Position numbers and translations under genes: made by a program. The notes beneath the pieces are model-generated. The model was not told where the DNA came from. It saw only the letters and a list, made by a program, of their open reading frames with translations, and searched no databases. Positions 42,625-56,493 of a DNA stretch of 64,000 bases are shown piece after piece. How positions within the stretch are numbered: position 1 is the stretch's first letter; the number at the start of each line of letters is the position of its first letter. Origin of the DNA: a virus; the IMG/VR virus record IMGVR_UViG_3300036670_000256, positions 1-64,000 of that record; one strand, 5' to 3'.

Positions 42625-42867
42625 TTATTCTACTTCTTCATAATTTACTGTTGAATTTTTTACTAGATTTTCTGATATCCAACCGCCTTTTGATTTTGAT
42701 TTAAATATTTCGCCAAACTTTGTTTTTGAAACAGGAAAGTAATCATAAGTTTTTTTAGCAAATTCTATTCGCATTACTCCCGTTTTGTTTTCTTCATCAT
42801 ATTCCCAACCAACTTTGTTTACGTTAGATGAATGTACGTTATACATTTTTCCTTTAAATTCACTCAT
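42625..42867 (-). CDS. KTSC domain protein
   Basis: The 80 residues match the KTSC domain pattern: VHSSNVNKVGWEYDEE, then the hydrophobic MRIEFAKKTYDYFPV and the terminal GGWISENLV. In this family the domain is small and of unknown biochemical function; it is often found in phages and next to nucleic-acid enzymes. It overlaps the degenerate DHH protein by four bases, so the two are made together. Confidence 0.8.
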   Translation of the reverse strand: MSEFKGKMYNVHSSNVNKVGWEYDEENKTGVMRIEFAKKTYDYFPVSKTKFGEIFKSKSKGGWISENLVKNSTVNYEEVE

Positions 42868-43973
42868 GATTTTTCTGTTTTAGTTTCTATAAAAATTGGC
42901 ATTGACTTCATCTGTGATAATAATAATTTAATATCTTTTGTTGAAAAATCAAAATTCTTAGGTAATTGATCTATATCTAAAGTTATAACATTACCAACCA
43001 CAATTCCTTTTTTGGTAATCTGCAGCTGTTCTAATTTTAAATTAAATCTAGAGAAGTTTTTATTTCCAGTTCCTCCAAATTCTTTAGCAATTTTTAATAC
43101 ATCTACTTCCGGTTTTGTAGTGTATAAATTTATGGACCAACAACATGTTTTTGAATTGTAGAAATACATAAACACAAGGTCGTGTATGCTTTCAAAAAAG
43201 AAATTTTCGTAAGCTATAAAGTCTAGCTTATTTGAATTAATAGCTATTGCTTTTAAATCATTAAAATCAAATTCTACTGAACTTGATTTTATCAATAAAT
43301 CGTATTGCTTTTTTTGGTATTCTAACACATAACTACCAATACTTTTTATACTCTCAATATCGATGTTTTTTTCCCAATCATCTATATCAACTAATATATT
43401 ATGTATTTGTTCTGGAGTAGATTTACTACTCATAAACCAGTACATAGGCATTACTTCTTTTACCCAATCTTTATCCTTAATTATTTTGGTTTCTTCCGTA
43501 TGTCTTAAGGTAGAATATTGTCCAATACAACTTACAATATCTCTAGCATTTTTGCCAAGCTTCTGAGCGTAAAAATTAATCGCTATCTCACAAGATGATA
43601 GCGTTTCGGAATAATAATAAACCATATTCATTTTGGTAACTTCAAAGCATTTAATATAACTATTCAAGCTTTTTTCTCTCACTTCATATTCATTCAACTC
43701 ACAATATGATATTAAATCTTCAAAGTTTCCTATAAAATTATCTATCCAAATAAATTCTAAAGAACCTAATCCTAAAGTTTTCATTCTTTCCATTGGTAAA
43801 GAGGTTCCTACCATTACTGTCACTTTGCCTTTGTACTTCCTGGTATCTAAATCTTCTTCAAAACATAAAGGTTTTAGTTTTAAAGTATCCCCATATTGTT
43901 TTTGATGCGAATACAATACTGCTGCAGCTGTTATACTGTCTAAAATTTCTAAGTTGTAAATACAAAAATCCAT
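42864..43973 (-). CDS. Degenerate DHH/DHHA1-type phosphoesterase-like protein
   Basis: The architecture resembles DHH phosphoesterases such as oligoribonucleases and c-di-AMP hydrolases: an N-terminal DSITAAAVLYS (equivalent of the metal-binding DxDGxxSA motif), a segment FIWIDNF where the DHH triad is expected, and a C-terminal GGTGNKNFSRF, close to the GGGGHxxAAG substrate-binding motif of DHHA1. The expected His residues and some Asp residues are missing, so it is probably not a canonical hydrolase and may bind a nucleotide. It lies in the counter-defence-like block and overlaps a KTSC gene. Confidence 0.65.
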   Translation of the reverse strand: MDFCIYNLEILDSITAAAVLYSHQKQYGDTLKLKPLCFEEDLDTRKYKGKVTVMVGTSLPMERMKTLGLGSLEFIWIDNFIGNFEDLISYCELNEYEVREKSLNSYIKCFEVTKMNMVYYYSETLSSCEIAINFYAQKLGKNARDIVSCIGQYSTLRHTEETKIIKDKDWVKEVMPMYWFMSSKSTPEQIHNILVDIDDWEKNIDIESIKSIGSYVLEYQKKQYDLLIKSSSVEFDFNDLKAIAINSNKLDFIAYENFFFESIHDLVFMYFYNSKTCCWSINLYTTKPEVDVLKIAKEFGGTGNKNFSRFNLKLEQLQITKKGIVVGNVITLDIDQLPKNFDFSTKDIKLLLSQMKSMPIFIETKTEKS

Positions 43974-44308: not shown

Positions 44309-44599
44309 TTATCTGCATTCAAACCAATCATCCGATAACATGTCTTCCGGATTTGGTATCCAACCTTCAGTAGTTACGCCATTGCAATTACACCGAAAAT
44401 GTGGAGTTCTAGTTATTGTATTAAAATCACCTCTCTGAAATAAGTTTTCATCAATGTAGTCTAGTTTGCTTCCATTCGAAATATCAGTAGAATAATTTCC
44501 CTGAATCAAACTAATGATTTTATTGTGAGCATTTATTCTAGCCACTTCTTTGTTTTGTTTTAATAACTCTAAAGCAACACTAAAATTGAAATTTCTCAT
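44309..44599 (-). CDS. Tad2-like (DUF2829) protein, candidate anti-Thoeris sponge
   Basis: The 96-residue sequence follows the DUF2829 layout: NFSVALELLKQNKEVARIN at the start, the mid segment with RTPHFRC, and the C-terminal GWIPNPEDMLSDDWFE (W80, P82, D86, W92). The characterised member Tad2 binds and sequesters the cyclic ADP-ribose isomers made by Thoeris TIR proteins, and some homologues also bind CBASS-type cyclic dinucleotides. It is transcribed from its own TATCTTTG box, and lies 60 bases from a GroES-like gene. The family call is good; the bound ligand is inferred. Confidence 0.72.
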   Translation of the reverse strand: MRNFNFSVALELLKQNKEVARINAHNKIISLIQGNYSTDISNGSKLDYIDENLFQRGDFNTITRTPHFRCNCNGVTTEGWIPNPEDMLSDDWFECR

Positions 44600-44613: not shown

Positions 44614-44621
44614 CAAAGATA
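44614..44621 (-). promoter_or_regulatory. Promoter box of the Tad2-like gene
   Basis: TATCTTTG on the minus strand, 14 bases before the ATG at 44599 and directly abutting the T-run of the terminator at 44621-44655. Confidence 0.55.
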
Positions 44622-44655
44622 AAAAAAAAGCGAGAATATTAATTTCTCGCTTTTA
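44621..44655 (-). terminator. Terminator after the GroES-like gene
   Basis: Perfect 10-bp stem AAAGCGAGAA (44627-44636) / TTCTCGCTTT (44644-44653) with a seven-base loop and a T-run on the minus strand. It ends the operon 46436-44659. Confidence 0.9.
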
Positions 44656-44658
44656 ATT

Positions 44659-44976
44659 TTAAACTTCTTCTTCTCGTACTAATTCCAAAATTTCATCTTC
44701 TCGTAAAGAACATAAAGCTTCGGTTAGTCCTTCATTATTAAAATTTTGAGAACCAAACACCGTTCCCGCGTGAGGTATGTGAGAAATTAAATCTCCTATT
44801 TTTACCCAATCAATACTTGTTCCTACCGCCAAAACTGTACCTCTTGATAACAATTTCTTCTCGTCTTTCTTTTCGATAATTCCAGATTTGTTTTCTTCAT
44901 ACAAACCCGAATCTTTTTCAACGTAAACTCTCAAAATAATTTTATTTGGCGCGCATCCTACTGTCTTCTTTTTCAT
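44659..44976 (-). CDS. GroES-like co-chaperonin
   Basis: The 105-residue protein has the GroES beta-barrel pattern: PNKIILRVYVEKD at the start, a mobile-loop-like insertion with ENKSGII, then SRGTVLAVG, VKIGDLI and the terminal EALCSLREDEILELV. Phage co-chaperonins such as T4 Gp31 replace host GroES on GroEL to fold a large capsid protein. It sits between the Acb2-like and Tad2-like genes and ends at a strong terminator. The sequence is divergent from host GroES, as in other phage versions. Confidence 0.8.
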   Translation of the reverse strand: MKKKTVGCAPNKIILRVYVEKDSGLYEENKSGIIEKKDEKKLLSRGTVLAVGTSIDWVKIGDLISHIPHAGTVFGSQNFNNEGLTEALCSLREDEILELVREEEV

Positions 44977-44992
44977 AATCTAATATTAAATG

Positions 44993-45217
44993 TTATACAA
45001 ATAAACTCTTAACTGCATACATGCAGCTTGTTTCTAATTGGGTTTGTGCTAATGATATTTCTCTACCATTTTGACCGTTGTTCATAGTTTCTAATTTGTC
45101 AAACAAATTAGCATAGTCTTGTTTCAATTCTTCAATCTCTGGCTTTGCAGATGGATTGAAATTTCTTTGAACTCTTAATTCTCCTTTCGATACTGGTCTT
45201 TCGATTTTTCCACTCAT
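44993..45217 (-). CDS. Acb2-like small protein, candidate anti-CBASS sponge
   Basis: The 74-residue protein matches the phage Acb2 family (DUF7681-type) layout: RVQRNFNPSAKPEIEELKQ in the first half and the C-terminal helix REISLAQTQLETSCMYAVK. Family members form small helical multimers that bind cyclic di- and trinucleotides and so block CBASS signalling. It has a GroES-like gene on one side (17 bases) and a DEDDh nuclease on the other (four bases). Function is inferred from family resemblance; the sequence is short. Confidence 0.7.
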   Translation of the reverse strand: MSGKIERPVSKGELRVQRNFNPSAKPEIEELKQDYANLFDKLETMNNGQNGREISLAQTQLETSCMYAVKSLFV

Positions 45218-45220
45218 AAT

Positions 45221-46081
45221 TTATAGTTTATTTAAAAATTTATACAATTCTAAATTCCATTTTGCATCCGATAACGCATGATGCTCGTTTGATTTTTTTG
45301 GAAATAAAATATTATTTTTCTTTATTGATTCTACCGTTACTTTTGGCATCCCTTCCTTAAGATTTGTAGAATCATTTATCTTCATAATTTTCTGATCTAA
45401 CATCTGCTTTAAATCTTTACAATACATCGGAAAACCATTTGGCAAATTTATCATTTTTCCAAACAACCAACAAAACACTACCCAATCATAATCACCAAAA
45501 TATGCGTAGAAATCTATCTCTCCCTTGAAATTAGCAATTATCTTTCTAGTGGTTTCTATCTGATGCTTATTCTCATCATAACCCACAATTGCAAATTCAT
45601 AAACAAATTCCTTTACCAATTCTGAAATCTGCTTGTTGGTCTTTCCATACCGTTCAATAAACGAACTCAAACTATGAATCGTAAATAAATCATCATGCAA
45701 TCCAGAATCTAATTCTTTCTTGAATTCCTCAGCCTCTCTATTACTCAACATAATCGTATCGCAATCTGAAAATAAAAATAACTGCTTCCAAATTGGATAT
45801 AATACATTATCGCGAATCCAATAAATCTTTAATGGAGGACAACCAGCTCGAATTTTCTCAGGACTTAATTCCTCTAAATCAAATCTATTCCAAGCTTCTT
45901 TTAAATTGAAATCTTTTGATACCTCATAAAACTCTCGGCCATCCTCAGAAACAATACCAATCGATATTAAATCAATTGTAGCCTTTGGTTTACCAATAAT
46001 CCAATTGCCTAAACGACCTTTCAATATTAAACTACGCTCCGGAACTCCTTCTAAAAATTCCGTGTCTAAAAAATATTTCAT
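45221..46081 (-). CDS. DEDDh 3'-5' exonuclease
   Basis: The three exonuclease motifs are visible: DTE (D6, E8), the FGDYDW segment (D197 or D199) and HHALSDAKWN (H267, D272), an H-x4-D site of the DEDDh class. The spacing between motifs I and II is long (about 190 residues), suggesting an inserted domain at about 60-165. Such enzymes remove nucleotides from RNA or DNA 3' ends. It is in the accessory operon before the Acb2-like gene, so nucleotide or RNA turnover is likely. Confidence 0.8.
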   Translation of the reverse strand: MKYFLDTEFLEGVPERSLILKGRLGNWIIGKPKATIDLISIGIVSEDGREFYEVSKDFNLKEAWNRFDLEELSPEKIRAGCPPLKIYWIRDNVLYPIWKQLFLFSDCDTIMLSNREAEEFKKELDSGLHDDLFTIHSLSSFIERYGKTNKQISELVKEFVYEFAIVGYDENKHQIETTRKIIANFKGEIDFYAYFGDYDWVVFCWLFGKMINLPNGFPMYCKDLKQMLDQKIMKINDSTNLKEGMPKVTVESIKKNNILFPKKSNEHHALSDAKWNLELYKFLNKL

Positions 46082-46082
46082 A

Positions 46083-46436
46083 TTATTCCTCTTTTTTAAT
46101 TCCTATTGGAAAATCATTAAACGCATTCTTACCATAATTATCCCCACCAGTTCCAAATATTATCGGAATATTTTTAATTCCTAAATCCCTTTTAGGAAAA
46201 GCAGCTTCCCAAGCTTTCTTAAAATCATCACGATTTAATTCCATCGGAATTTTTAACAAAGGATTTAAACCACTAAACGAACTACCATTAACCCTTTTTT
46301 CCATATCTCTATTCATTTTTTCCGTTAACGCATCTTCATCCGTATGCTTAAACCATAAGCTTTTAAGATCGCTAAATCCCTTAACGTTTTTAAAACAATC
46401 AGAGTCTTCACCACAAGCACTAAATAAATTATCCAT
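46083..46436 (-). CDS. Hypothetical protein, 117 aa, first gene of accessory operon
   Basis: The product has a Cys-containing N-terminus (SACGEDSDCFKNVKG) and a C-terminal GTGGDNYGKNAFNDFPIG segment; no family is recognised. It is the first gene of the 46436-44659 operon, starting four bases after the TATATTTG box, so it may be translated from a leaderless message. It is one base from the nuclease gene. Confidence 0.65.
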   Translation of the reverse strand: MDNLFSACGEDSDCFKNVKGFSDLKSLWFKHTDEDALTEKMNRDMEKRVNGSSFSGLNPLLKIPMELNRDDFKKAWEAAFPKRDLGIKNIPIIFGTGGDNYGKNAFNDFPIGIKKEE

Positions 46437-46440
46437 GATA

Positions 46441-46472
46441 CAAATATAGATGAAGTTATTTCATGTACCAAT
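46441..46472 (-). promoter_or_regulatory. Leftward promoter with palindrome, near-leaderless
   Basis: Minus strand: ATTG (46472-46469), 20-base spacer, TATATTTG (46448-46441). The spacer holds TGAAATAACTTCA (46463-46451), two bases from the box. The ATG at 46436 begins four bases downstream of the box. Confidence 0.65.
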
Positions 46473-51817: not shown

Positions 51818-52258
51818 ATGTTAAACACAAAATTAGATTTGATTACTTTAAGAAAAGAAAAGTCTGAATTTAATAGAATTAAACTTACTTCACCAGAAGT
51901 TACGGCCGAGTATATTCGTCAATTTTATTCTGATGATATTGAAATATTTGAAAGTATGTTTATTTTAATGGTAAATAACAGCAATACAACCATTGGTTAT
52001 GCTAAAATAAGTCAAGGTGGTATTACTGGAACCGTTGTAGATATTAGAATCATTTGCAAATATGCAATTGATTGTTTAGCTACCGGAATTGTGATTTGTC
52101 ACAATCATCCTTCAGGAATTATGGTTCCTAGTGCTCAAGATTTACAAATAACAAAAAGGCTAATTTTAGCATTAAAAACTTTAGATGTAATTCTTTTAGA
52201 TCATATTATTTTATGTTCAGAAGATTACTACTCTATGAAAGATAGAGGAGATATATAA
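51818..52258 (+). CDS. RadC-like JAB/MPN metalloprotein
   Basis: The JAMM-type motif is clear: HNHPSG (95-100) followed by D108 in SAQDLQIT, with LLDHIIL and YYSMKDRG downstream, as in the RadC family. The N-terminal HhH domain of full RadC is absent, and the 146-residue length fits the short mobile-element type. The family's function is not well established; in phages and islands it is often near restriction or anti-restriction genes. Its stop is shared with the next ATG. Confidence 0.85.
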   Translation: MLNTKLDLITLRKEKSEFNRIKLTSPEVTAEYIRQFYSDDIEIFESMFILMVNNSNTTIGYAKISQGGITGTVVDIRIICKYAIDCLATGIVICHNHPSGIMVPSAQDLQITKRLILALKTLDVILLDHIILCSEDYYSMKDRGDI

Positions 52259-53946: not shown

Positions 53947-56493
53947 ATGAAAAAAGTATTATACAATCCGTTTCAATTATTAATCAACTTTGACGTAATT
54001 GAGAAAGATTTATTTTTACTTGGAGATTTGCATAACATTAAATCGATGTTACCAAAATTATTTGAAACTCAACAAGAAGACGTTGCAGCTGCAGAGAATC
54101 GTTTTAAAGAAGGTAAAGGTTATCTTTTTACAAATGGAACTGGCACTGGCAAAACATACGTCGGTCTTGGTATTGCATTTAGGTTTTACACTAACAACAA
54201 AAAGAACATTATTATTGTTGTTCCTACAGATGAAAAATCTAAAGATTGGGTTGAAGATGGTTTGAACATTGGTTTGAGTATATACAAACTTCAAGGAATA
54301 CACGATGCTGGACATGAAATAACTGTTACTACTTATGCTAACTTTTATCAGAATGAAGCGATTAATAAGGTGAAATGGGATTTAGTTATTTATGACGAAT
54401 CACATTACTTAGGTCAAAATGCAAATGGCGTTGAAAATAGTTATTTGCAAAAACATAAGAACATTGCCAATCTTCCTTCTGCAGCAAGGTCTAAAGCGTT
54501 TGAACATAACGGAGTTTACGAAGATTATTATTGTGAAGATAGTGGTCTTGTAAAACAAAAGGTAAACAAAGAATTGTACGACAAAGTTTACAACGAATAC
54601 ATTGAAAGTACTAAAGTAGTTTTTCTTTCTGCTACGCCATTCGCGTACCATAAATCAATTAAGTATGCAGATGGAGCATTGTTTGAAATCAATGAAAAAA
54701 TAATTCCGGATAAAGACACTTTTACATCATACAATGATGGTGGTGCTTGGGAAAATTTCATGATGGATAACTTTGGTTACAGAATGAAGTACAATAAACT
54801 TACCATACCAGAAACAGGTGTGGACCAAAATTTATTAGAAAGAAGTTTCTTTGAAAGTTTTAAAGACAGAGGAGTAATGTCAACTAGACAATTAGAACTT
54901 GAGCAAGATTACTCAAGAGAATTTATAATAGTTGATTCTGAAATTGGAAAGTTTATTGATGATGGGTTAAATTTATTTCACGATACTGATTTTTCTAAAA
55001 GATATCCTAAGTTAAGTGAGTTTCATAAGAGAAAACTTAATTATTTGTTTATTAATCAATTGCTAGAATGTATTAAAGCAAAAGATATAAATGAAAGAAT
55101 TAAGCAACATCTTTATTTGAATAGAAAAGTTGTAGTGTTTCATAATTATAATAACGCAAACATTACACATCCTTTTCAATTTCAAGTAAGAGAATTAATT
55201 TCTACTGATGAAGAATTTCATAAACATTCTGATGCTTTAAGAATTGAGATTTTAAAGTTTAAAGAAGAATATTCTCATTATTGGAATTTAGATTTGTCTG
55301 GTTTGTCTAACATTAGAAAAACTATCAAACAATGTTTTCCTGAAGCTAGAGAGTTTAACGGAACTGTCAGCAAAAAACTTAGAAGTAAATTTATAAAAGA
55401 ATTTAATTCTGATTTTTCTATGATTGATATTATTTTAGTTCAAGTAAAAGCTGGACAAGAAGGTATTTCTTTACACGATAAAACAGGAATGCACCAAAGA
55501 GTTTTAATTAATTTAGGACTTCCTACAGCTCCGACTCAAGCTATTCAAACAGAAGGTAGAATTTACAGACAAGGTTTAAAAAGCAATGCAATTTACGAGT
55601 ATGCCACAGTGCAAACTAGTACAGAAAGAATTGCTTTTGCTACAAAAATTGCTGAACGTTCTAAGACTGCTGAAAATTTGGCTATGGGTAATTTGGCTAG
55701 AGATTTAGAAACAGCTTTTAAAGAAGGCTATGCAAATGCCAATGAAAACGAGCCAAACTTAGAACAAGGTGTTGGAGGTAAAGAATCTGATCGTTTCTTA
55801 TTTACAATTAATGAGTATGAAAAAACAAAAACATTTTATTGGAAAAGAAGAAAACGTAATTCTAAAACTAAAGCAAGAGAAGGTGTTGATTATTTTGCTA
55901 CTCCTGAACCTTTAGGTTTTAAAATGGTAGAATGGTTAAAGCTTGAACCTAACCATAGATGCTTAGAACCATCTGCAGGTCATGGTGCTATTGCTAGATT
56001 TTTACCAAGCGATTGTGTTAATGATTTTATAGAACCTAGTTTTGAACTTAGTTCACAAATTGCTATTAATGCAACGGGAACTGTTATTAATAGTACTTTT
56101 GAAGATCATCACATAATTAATAAATATGAAGCAATTGTGATGAATCCTCCTTTTGGTTCTGGTGGTAGACTTGCTATGGAACATATTGCAAAAGCGTGCA
56201 AACATTTATCTACAGCACAAGGTGCTAAAGTAATTGCAATAATTCCTAACGGTTCTTCAATGCAAAAAAGACTTGATGAATTTTTTGCAGACGAAAAGAA
56301 TAGAATGTTTCATTTAACTGGACAGATATACTTACCATCTGTTTTATTTGAAAGAGCCGGAACAAACGTTTCATGTAGAATTATTAGAATAGAAACAGCT
56401 AGAAGTTTACGTTCTGAATACAATGAAATTGAACTTTACGATTGTGCAACAATCGATGAATTCTTTGATAGAATAGAACATTTAGATTTTTAA
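53947..56493 (+). CDS. SNF2-type helicase fused to N6-adenine methyltransferase-like domain
   Basis: The first 600 residues are a superfamily 2 helicase: Walker A TNGTGTGKTY (62-71), DESH (150-153), the SATPFAY motif III and the motif VI-type segment TEGRIYRQGL. Residues about 640-848 are a class I methyltransferase: the SAM-binding LEPSAGHGAI (starting near 673) and the catalytic NPPF (733-736) of N6-adenine or N4-cytosine enzymes. Helicase-methyltransferase fusions include the P1 antirestriction protein DarB. It may modify or remodel phage DNA to avoid restriction, or act in replication. The domains are clear; the role is inferred. Confidence 0.85.
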   Translation: MKKVLYNPFQLLINFDVIEKDLFLLGDLHNIKSMLPKLFETQQEDVAAAENRFKEGKGYLFTNGTGTGKTYVGLGIAFRFYTNNKKNIIIVVPTDEKSKDWVEDGLNIGLSIYKLQGIHDAGHEITVTTYANFYQNEAINKVKWDLVIYDESHYLGQNANGVENSYLQKHKNIANLPSAARSKAFEHNGVYEDYYCEDSGLVKQKVNKELYDKVYNEYIESTKVVFLSATPFAYHKSIKYADGALFEINEKIIPDKDTFTSYNDGGAWENFMMDNFGYRMKYNKLTIPETGVDQNLLERSFFESFKDRGVMSTRQLELEQDYSREFIIVDSEIGKFIDDGLNLFHDTDFSKRYPKLSEFHKRKLNYLFINQLLECIKAKDINERIKQHLYLNRKVVVFHNYNNANITHPFQFQVRELISTDEEFHKHSDALRIEILKFKEEYSHYWNLDLSGLSNIRKTIKQCFPEAREFNGTVSKKLRSKFIKEFNSDFSMIDIILVQVKAGQEGISLHDKTGMHQRVLINLGLPTAPTQAIQTEGRIYRQGLKSNAIYEYATVQTSTERIAFATKIAERSKTAENLAMGNLARDLETAFKEGYANANENEPNLEQGVGGKESDRFLFTINEYEKTKTFYWKRRKRNSKTKAREGVDYFATPEPLGFKMVEWLKLEPNHRCLEPSAGHGAIARFLPSDCVNDFIEPSFELSSQIAINATGTVINSTFEDHHIINKYEAIVMNPPFGSGGRLAMEHIAKACKHLSTAQGAKVIAIIPNGSSMQKRLDEFFADEKNRMFHLTGQIYLPSVLFERAGTNVSCRIIRIETARSLRSEYNEIELYDCATIDEFFDRIEHLDF

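Follow-up and report, generated by a model that had tools for sequence, protein, structure and literature searches.

Does the short open reading frame at 44993 to 45217 encode a protein of the Acb2 kind, and does it form, together with the Tad2-like gene nearby, one short block of two sponges with different ligands? A sequence-only reading of this DNA had proposed both. The window, i.e. the whole stretch of 64,000 nucleotides that was analysed, belongs to a virus record of 73.6 kb (GC 30%). The terminase of this record shows a distant relationship (about 25%) to crAss-like phages, and a genome-collection scan gave a single relative of the Acb2-like gene, located next to an integrase in a MAG from Bacteroidetes. 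The source is probably a tailed phage with a Bacteroidota host. The following features, all on the minus strand and ordered from upstream to downstream, are relevant:

46441 to 46448, minus strand: TATATTTG, a Bacteroidota-type -7 box (pattern TAnnTTTG) just upstream of the 117-aa first gene
46083 to 46436, minus strand: 117-aa protein with no Pfam family, first gene of a probable transcription unit (ORF list)
45221 to 46081, minus strand: DEDD-type 3'-5' exonuclease, RNase AS-like (PF16473, 27.4 bits; PHROG 2259, E=4.8e-42)
44993 to 45217, minus strand: Acb2/Tad1-hairpin protein, a putative cyclic-oligonucleotide sponge (74 aa, ATG start, PF24729)
44659 to 44976, minus strand: GroES/Cpn10-like small protein, 105 aa, a weak assignment (PHROG 3188, co-chaperonin GroES, E=1.8e-5)
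44626 to 44654, minus strand: terminator-like hairpin (11 pairs and a T run), 3' of the GroES-like gene and 5' of the Tad2-like one
44614 to 44621, minus strand: TATCTTTG, a -7-box-like TAnnTTTG site ahead of the start codon of the Tad2-like gene (pattern search)
44309 to 44599, minus strand: divergent Tad2-like protein, 96 aa, without GWNGxGM (PF11195 and predicted fold)

According to the list of open reading frames with translations, the Acb2-like frame holds both FNPS and REISLAQTQLETSCMYAVK. Relatives of its product were found in 20 viral contigs at 60-70% identity, and a second scan of viral contigs with A1, the alignment of the window protein and its relatives (21 members), returned the same 20 contigs. 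Nucleotide identity to these relatives was 0.67, 0.81 and 0.49 at codon positions 1, 2 and 3, respectively. Thus, because relatives occur in 20 contigs and the codon pattern is one of purifying selection, this is a real coding sequence. The proposed Acb2-like identity was borne out by the family search, where PF24729 (Acb2_Tad1_hairpin) matched the protein with E=4.8e-9 and 36.7 bits, above the curated Pfam cut-off of 27. For comparison, T4 Acb2 and PaMx33 Acb2 scored 71 and 66 bits. In a profile-profile comparison with Acb2 of the T4/PaMx33 type the C-terminal helix was aligned (E=1.5e-4, probability 52%). An NCBIfam search gave no Acb2 assignment, and PHROGs returned weak, unnamed families only. 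It could be argued that the resemblance arose by chance and that the protein lies outside PF24729, as small helical proteins are prone to spurious matches and the Foldseek search (see below) was weak, while single-sequence phmmer against the PDB produced spurious matches only. However, PF24729 was above its cut-off in 21 of 21 members of A1 and matched none of 14 control genomes, which in effect refutes a chance origin; we give it practically no weight. The protein is an ordinary new addition to a known family.

The predicted helix layout agrees with this assignment. The AlphaFold2 model (mean pLDDT 86) contains one short and two long helices (residues 11-19, 26-45 and 51-73), which is the layout of the published Acb2 protomer (PMC12043709). 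As the model is all-helical over 74 aa, there is no N-terminal beta domain of the kind found in Tad1 (PMC12043709). Among 350,542 PDB chains, Foldseek placed T4 Vs.4 (7uq2, with cGAMP) at ranks 1 and 3 and Acb2 8h2j at rank 6; the E-values of these Acb2 matches (3.1-9.5, with TM 0.41-0.44) are not significant alone, as can be expected since the hairpin is small. In BFVD, a collection of predicted viral structures, the best matches were Acb2/Tad1 hairpin proteins with probability 1.00. With respect to the sequence-only reading, a family match is therefore present and the predicted fold is not an unrelated one.

Given that the hairpin is common to Tad1 and that PF24729 spans both proteins, the gene could also be a remnant of Tad1, reduced to its hairpin, or a decaying gene with little function. 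Its 74 aa, compared to about 88-94 aa for characterised Acb2, and the long branch (0.92) of the window row within the clade tree would fit such an origin. However, the reading frame is intact and has the same length as in the 20 relatives, and the codon-position identities point to purifying selection. Additionally, the A1 profile recovered the Acb2 entries 8ixz and 8h2j among PDB sequences, albeit weakly (E=1.2), and no Tad1 chain among solved-structure matches up to E=10. We thus regard a remnant or decaying gene as very improbable.

Important insight can be gained from the residues of the ligand pocket. Firstly, K32, invariant across the clade, aligns in the same Pfam register with T4 Lys23 and PaMx33 Lys26, which we take to be the pocket lysine of Acb2. 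R52 and T59 are likewise invariant within the clade, at positions that presumably contact the trinucleotide in PaMx33 Acb2, for whose K26 and R67 roles are likewise presumed. Secondly, F73, again invariant across the clade, aligns with T4 Phe82, a position at which PaMx33 Acb2 has alanine. In T4 Acb2, both Tyr8 and Phe82 are required for ligand binding or function, and Phe82 stacks on the ligand, its mutation abolishing function (PMC12657218). Thirdly, the match to PF24729 begins at profile position 8 in the window protein, whereas in T4 and PaMx33 Acb2 it begins at position 1, where both carry GY(K/R). This segment, which holds the tyrosine that contacts the ligand, is therefore missing; indeed, the window protein contains no GY, and no residue lines up in register with T4 Tyr8. 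As a replacement for this tyrosine, F20 from FNPS is only a candidate.

The FNPS segment had been put forward, along with a C-terminal pattern, as a match to phage Acb2 proteins, and with regard to FNPS the earlier proposal is not supported for the characterised ones. It is part of an N-terminal block, GExRVQRxFNPSAN, that is strongly conserved in the subfamily and absent from the characterised Acb2 of T4 and PaMx33, and it marks a separate subfamily of PF24729. No binding, oligomer or other biochemical study of this subfamily was found in the accessible literature. To judge from these residues, the protein belongs to PF24729 but is not established as an Acb2 in the strict sense, and its ligand range may differ. 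Both the conserved block and the missing tyrosine motif would also agree with a hairpin fold that performs another job, e.g. as a regulator, as a small virion-assembly or chaperonin-associated protein, or as a binder of a different nucleotide, but the retained lysine and the retained C-terminal phenylalanine, the latter a ligand contact, speak against it. The gene neighbourhood bears on the same question and is taken up below.

In the case of the Tad2-like gene, the previously estimated distance of about 400 bases proved accurate, as the gap is 393 bases and both genes lie on the same strand. PF11195 matched its product with E=1.9e-9 and 38.4 bits (cut-off 25). The AF2 model is only moderately confident (pLDDT 67); it matched SptTad2, SPO1 Tad2 and ModTad2 with probability 1.00 (best E=8e-4), and the top 23 PDB matches were all Tad2 or AcrIIA7. 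Because AcrIIA7 has the same fold, an anti-Thoeris role does not follow from the fold by itself. Used alone as a query, the window protein found no viral relative, and a profile dominated by the Tad2 proteins of related phages had the His-ADPR-binding ModTad2 as its best match. These relatives keep GWNGxGM near the N-terminus (alignment A7), and the window copy has lost it through a two-residue deletion and substitutions. Since this motif is missing, the ligand of the window protein may differ from that of its relatives or may be lost. Typical Tad2 ligands are gcADPR, His-ADPR or cyclic dinucleotides. It should be added that the ligand ranges of Tad2 and Acb2 overlap (PMC12043709). The idea of two sponges with different ligands is consequently weakened on the Tad2-like side and is unproven.

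Further genes of the window were annotated. Downstream of the Tad2-like gene, a 369-aa DHH phosphoesterase-like protein is encoded at 42864-43973 on the minus strand (PHROG 4771, E=9.3e-10); the usual DHH motif is not apparent in its N-terminal segment, so that it may presumably be inactive. It is followed by a KTSC-domain protein at 42625-42867, minus strand (PF13619, 26.6 bits, cut-off 25). On the plus strand, a RadC-like JAB domain protein lies at 51818-52258 (PF04002, E=8.3e-35), and an 848-aa helicase/methyltransferase at 53947-56493 shares about 40% identity with DarB-like antirestriction proteins from phages of Pseudomonas and Serratia. By this similarity, the latter is another putative counter-defence gene on the same genome.

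With regard to the proposed block, the local gene order on the minus strand runs from the 117-aa gene through the exonuclease, the Acb2-like and the GroES-like gene to the Tad2-like gene. The first four are tightly packed and would constitute a single unit; only 3 bases separate the end of the exonuclease from the start codon of the Acb2-like gene. With the RNase_AS profile this exonuclease gave E=1.3e-23, below the equivalog cut-off. RNase AS-like exonucleases were seen near acb2 in five loci (the window, L055, L057, L063 and L102), and a functional link between the two genes is possible. The GroES-like protein, encoded between the Acb2-like and Tad2-like genes, reached 16.8 bits with PF00166, below the cut-off of 21.1, and no GroEL partner was found in the virus record of the window. 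Co-transcription of the Acb2-like and Tad2-like genes is doubtful, because the terminator-like hairpin and the TAnnTTTG box lie in between, although neither element is proven. Terminator-like sites numbered 6 in this region compared to 1.7 expected. Single TAnnTTTG sites are weak evidence, given that 148 were observed in the window and 118 expected, and promoter calls are tentative since the full Bacteroides promoter, TTTG-N18-22-TAnnTTTG, is not significantly enriched (11 compared to 6.2 expected). The two genes are thus probably not co-transcribed and belong to two predicted transcription units. Of the proposed short block, the closeness stands.

The recurrence of the pair was determined in 72 viral records with the Acb2-like family, including the window (73 loci for neighbour counts). 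Tad2 was above the Pfam cut-off in 10 of these 72 records, and in all ten it was on the same strand and less than 1 kb from the Acb2-like gene, with gaps of -7 to 718 bases. Under random placement each single case would have a probability of 0.01 to 0.14, and the ten cases are not independent, as the proteins of G068, G069 and G071 are almost the same. The pairs nevertheless come from several lineages and show both gene orders, and the Acb2 tree requires at least 3 to 4 label changes, at least three of them forced by well-supported branches. In an eleventh record, G029, an Acb2-like gene below the threshold adjoins Tad2. In 62 of the 72 records Tad2 is not in the record, though many of these are fragments. 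Altogether, the recurrent pairing suggests a shared anti-immunity gene cluster, or anti-signalling cassette.

The position occupied by Tad2 can also be taken by another gene. In L091, L096 and L114, an RyR-domain gene (PF02026) lies directly downstream of the Acb2-like gene, in the Tad2 slot, and L118 (1820-2437) has a single ORF in which RyR is joined to Tad2. Single-linkage clustering had assigned Tad2 to L058, L091, L096 and L114; these are actually RyR-domain proteins that were joined via the L118 fusion. The window's own record contains no RyR-domain gene (PF02026). A 2026 preprint reported phage RyR-domain proteins (RyDEP) as anti-Thoeris and as degrading or sequestering cyclic ADP-ribose signals (PMC13232231). 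Because these genes occupy the Tad2 slot, they lend independent support to a counter-defence neighbourhood.

Two other neighbours were frequent. GroES/Cpn10-like genes were on the same strand and at most 3 kb from the Acb2-like gene in 17 of 73 loci (L059, L084-L086, L088, L090, L097, L098, L100, L101, L104, L106, L107, L109-L111 and L116), with GroEL-like genes in range in 8. A small protein with the pattern 'RKKPVxIEA ... GDYIIKGxxGEFYPCKPxIFExTY', for which a scan of one copy gave no Pfam family, neighbours the Acb2-like gene in 13 of 73 loci (L061-L063, L084-L086, L088, L100, L101, L110-L112 and L125).

For the FNPS subfamily, the frequency of GroES/GroEL-like neighbours adds to the case for another job. 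However, linkage to two anti-Thoeris families, Tad2 and RyR-domain genes, points to counter-defence, and another job appears unlikely to us overall. We consider it likely that the gene, carried by a tailed phage, encodes a stand-alone hairpin protein of the Acb2/Tad1 family, and that this protein sequesters cyclic oligonucleotides. The protein would most likely oligomerise as Acb2 does, presumably into a hexamer like that of characterised Acb2, which binds 3',3'-cGAMP and cA3, and this oligomer would hold cyclic di- and/or trinucleotide alarm signals without degrading them. With the signal bound, effectors of the CBASS type, or the cA3-dependent effectors of type III CRISPR, would stay inactive, and the phage would be protected against CBASS. 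The gene would act within a short neighbourhood of counter-defence genes, in which the other gene with a sponge fold, the Tad2-like one, is probably transcribed separately.

The Acb2-Tad2-RyR neighbourhood is a more interesting result than a new family member. We are slightly inclined to see in it a recurrent, repeatedly reassembled 'anti-nucleotide-signal' cassette of environmental and Bacteroidota phages, in which a cyclic-oligonucleotide sponge is paired with antagonists of ADP-ribose signals and the small genes still without a name that share these slots would probably be antagonists as well. No earlier description of it was found in the papers that could be searched. Single phages are known to block several nucleotide alarms, such as T4 with Acb1 and Acb2 and SPO1 with Tad2 and Acb4 (PMC11722364). 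If the physical pairing of Acb2-type and Tad2-type genes is recurrent, the neighbourhood becomes a practical guide to new counter-defence genes, as illustrated by the RyR-domain proteins, with an anti-Thoeris role reported in 2026 (PMC13232231), found in the same slot as Tad2 beside acb2. Moreover, the widespread FNPS subfamily would test whether loss of the Acb2 tyrosine alters the ligand range, e.g. so as not to set off Panoptes, a system that penalises phages for sequestering its guard nucleotide (PMC12657218).

Compared with known systems, the window protein has PF24729 in common with Acb2 of Pseudomonas phage PaMx33/PaP2 (p26; 8h2j, 8ixz) and with T4 Vs.4 (7uq2). All are small, stand-alone proteins without the Tad1 beta domain, and the model of the window protein has the same short N-terminal helix and two long helices, although identity in the alignment is only 19%. 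The lysine is common to all three, the C-terminal phenylalanine is common with T4, and PaMx33 shares the R and T found in the C-terminal helix. In contrast, the window protein is without the GY(K/R) of T4 and PaMx33 Acb2 and has the subfamily block GExRVQRxFNPSA, absent from both. Flavobacterium phages (e.g. FCV-1 and FCL-2) carry proteins that also belong to the FNPS subfamily (38% identity across residues 12-74, with a shorter N-terminus) and are annotated as hypothetical; unlike in the window, Tad2 was found in neither of the Flavobacterium phage records G040 and G041. Tad1, from a Clostridium botulinum prophage and others, shares the family of its C-terminal hairpin domain with the window protein, from which the N-terminal beta-sheet domain of Tad1 (PMC12043709) is absent. 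The window Tad2-like protein has PF11195, the predicted fold and a conserved C-terminal W..D.L..DW pattern in common with Tad2 (SPO1 8smf/8smg, SptTad2 8wjd and ModTad2 9eib), and differs from its own relatives by the missing GWNGxGM. Finally, RyR-domain proteins of the RyDEP type (PMC13232231) occur in related phages either beside acb2 (L091, L096, L114) or fused to Tad2 (L118).
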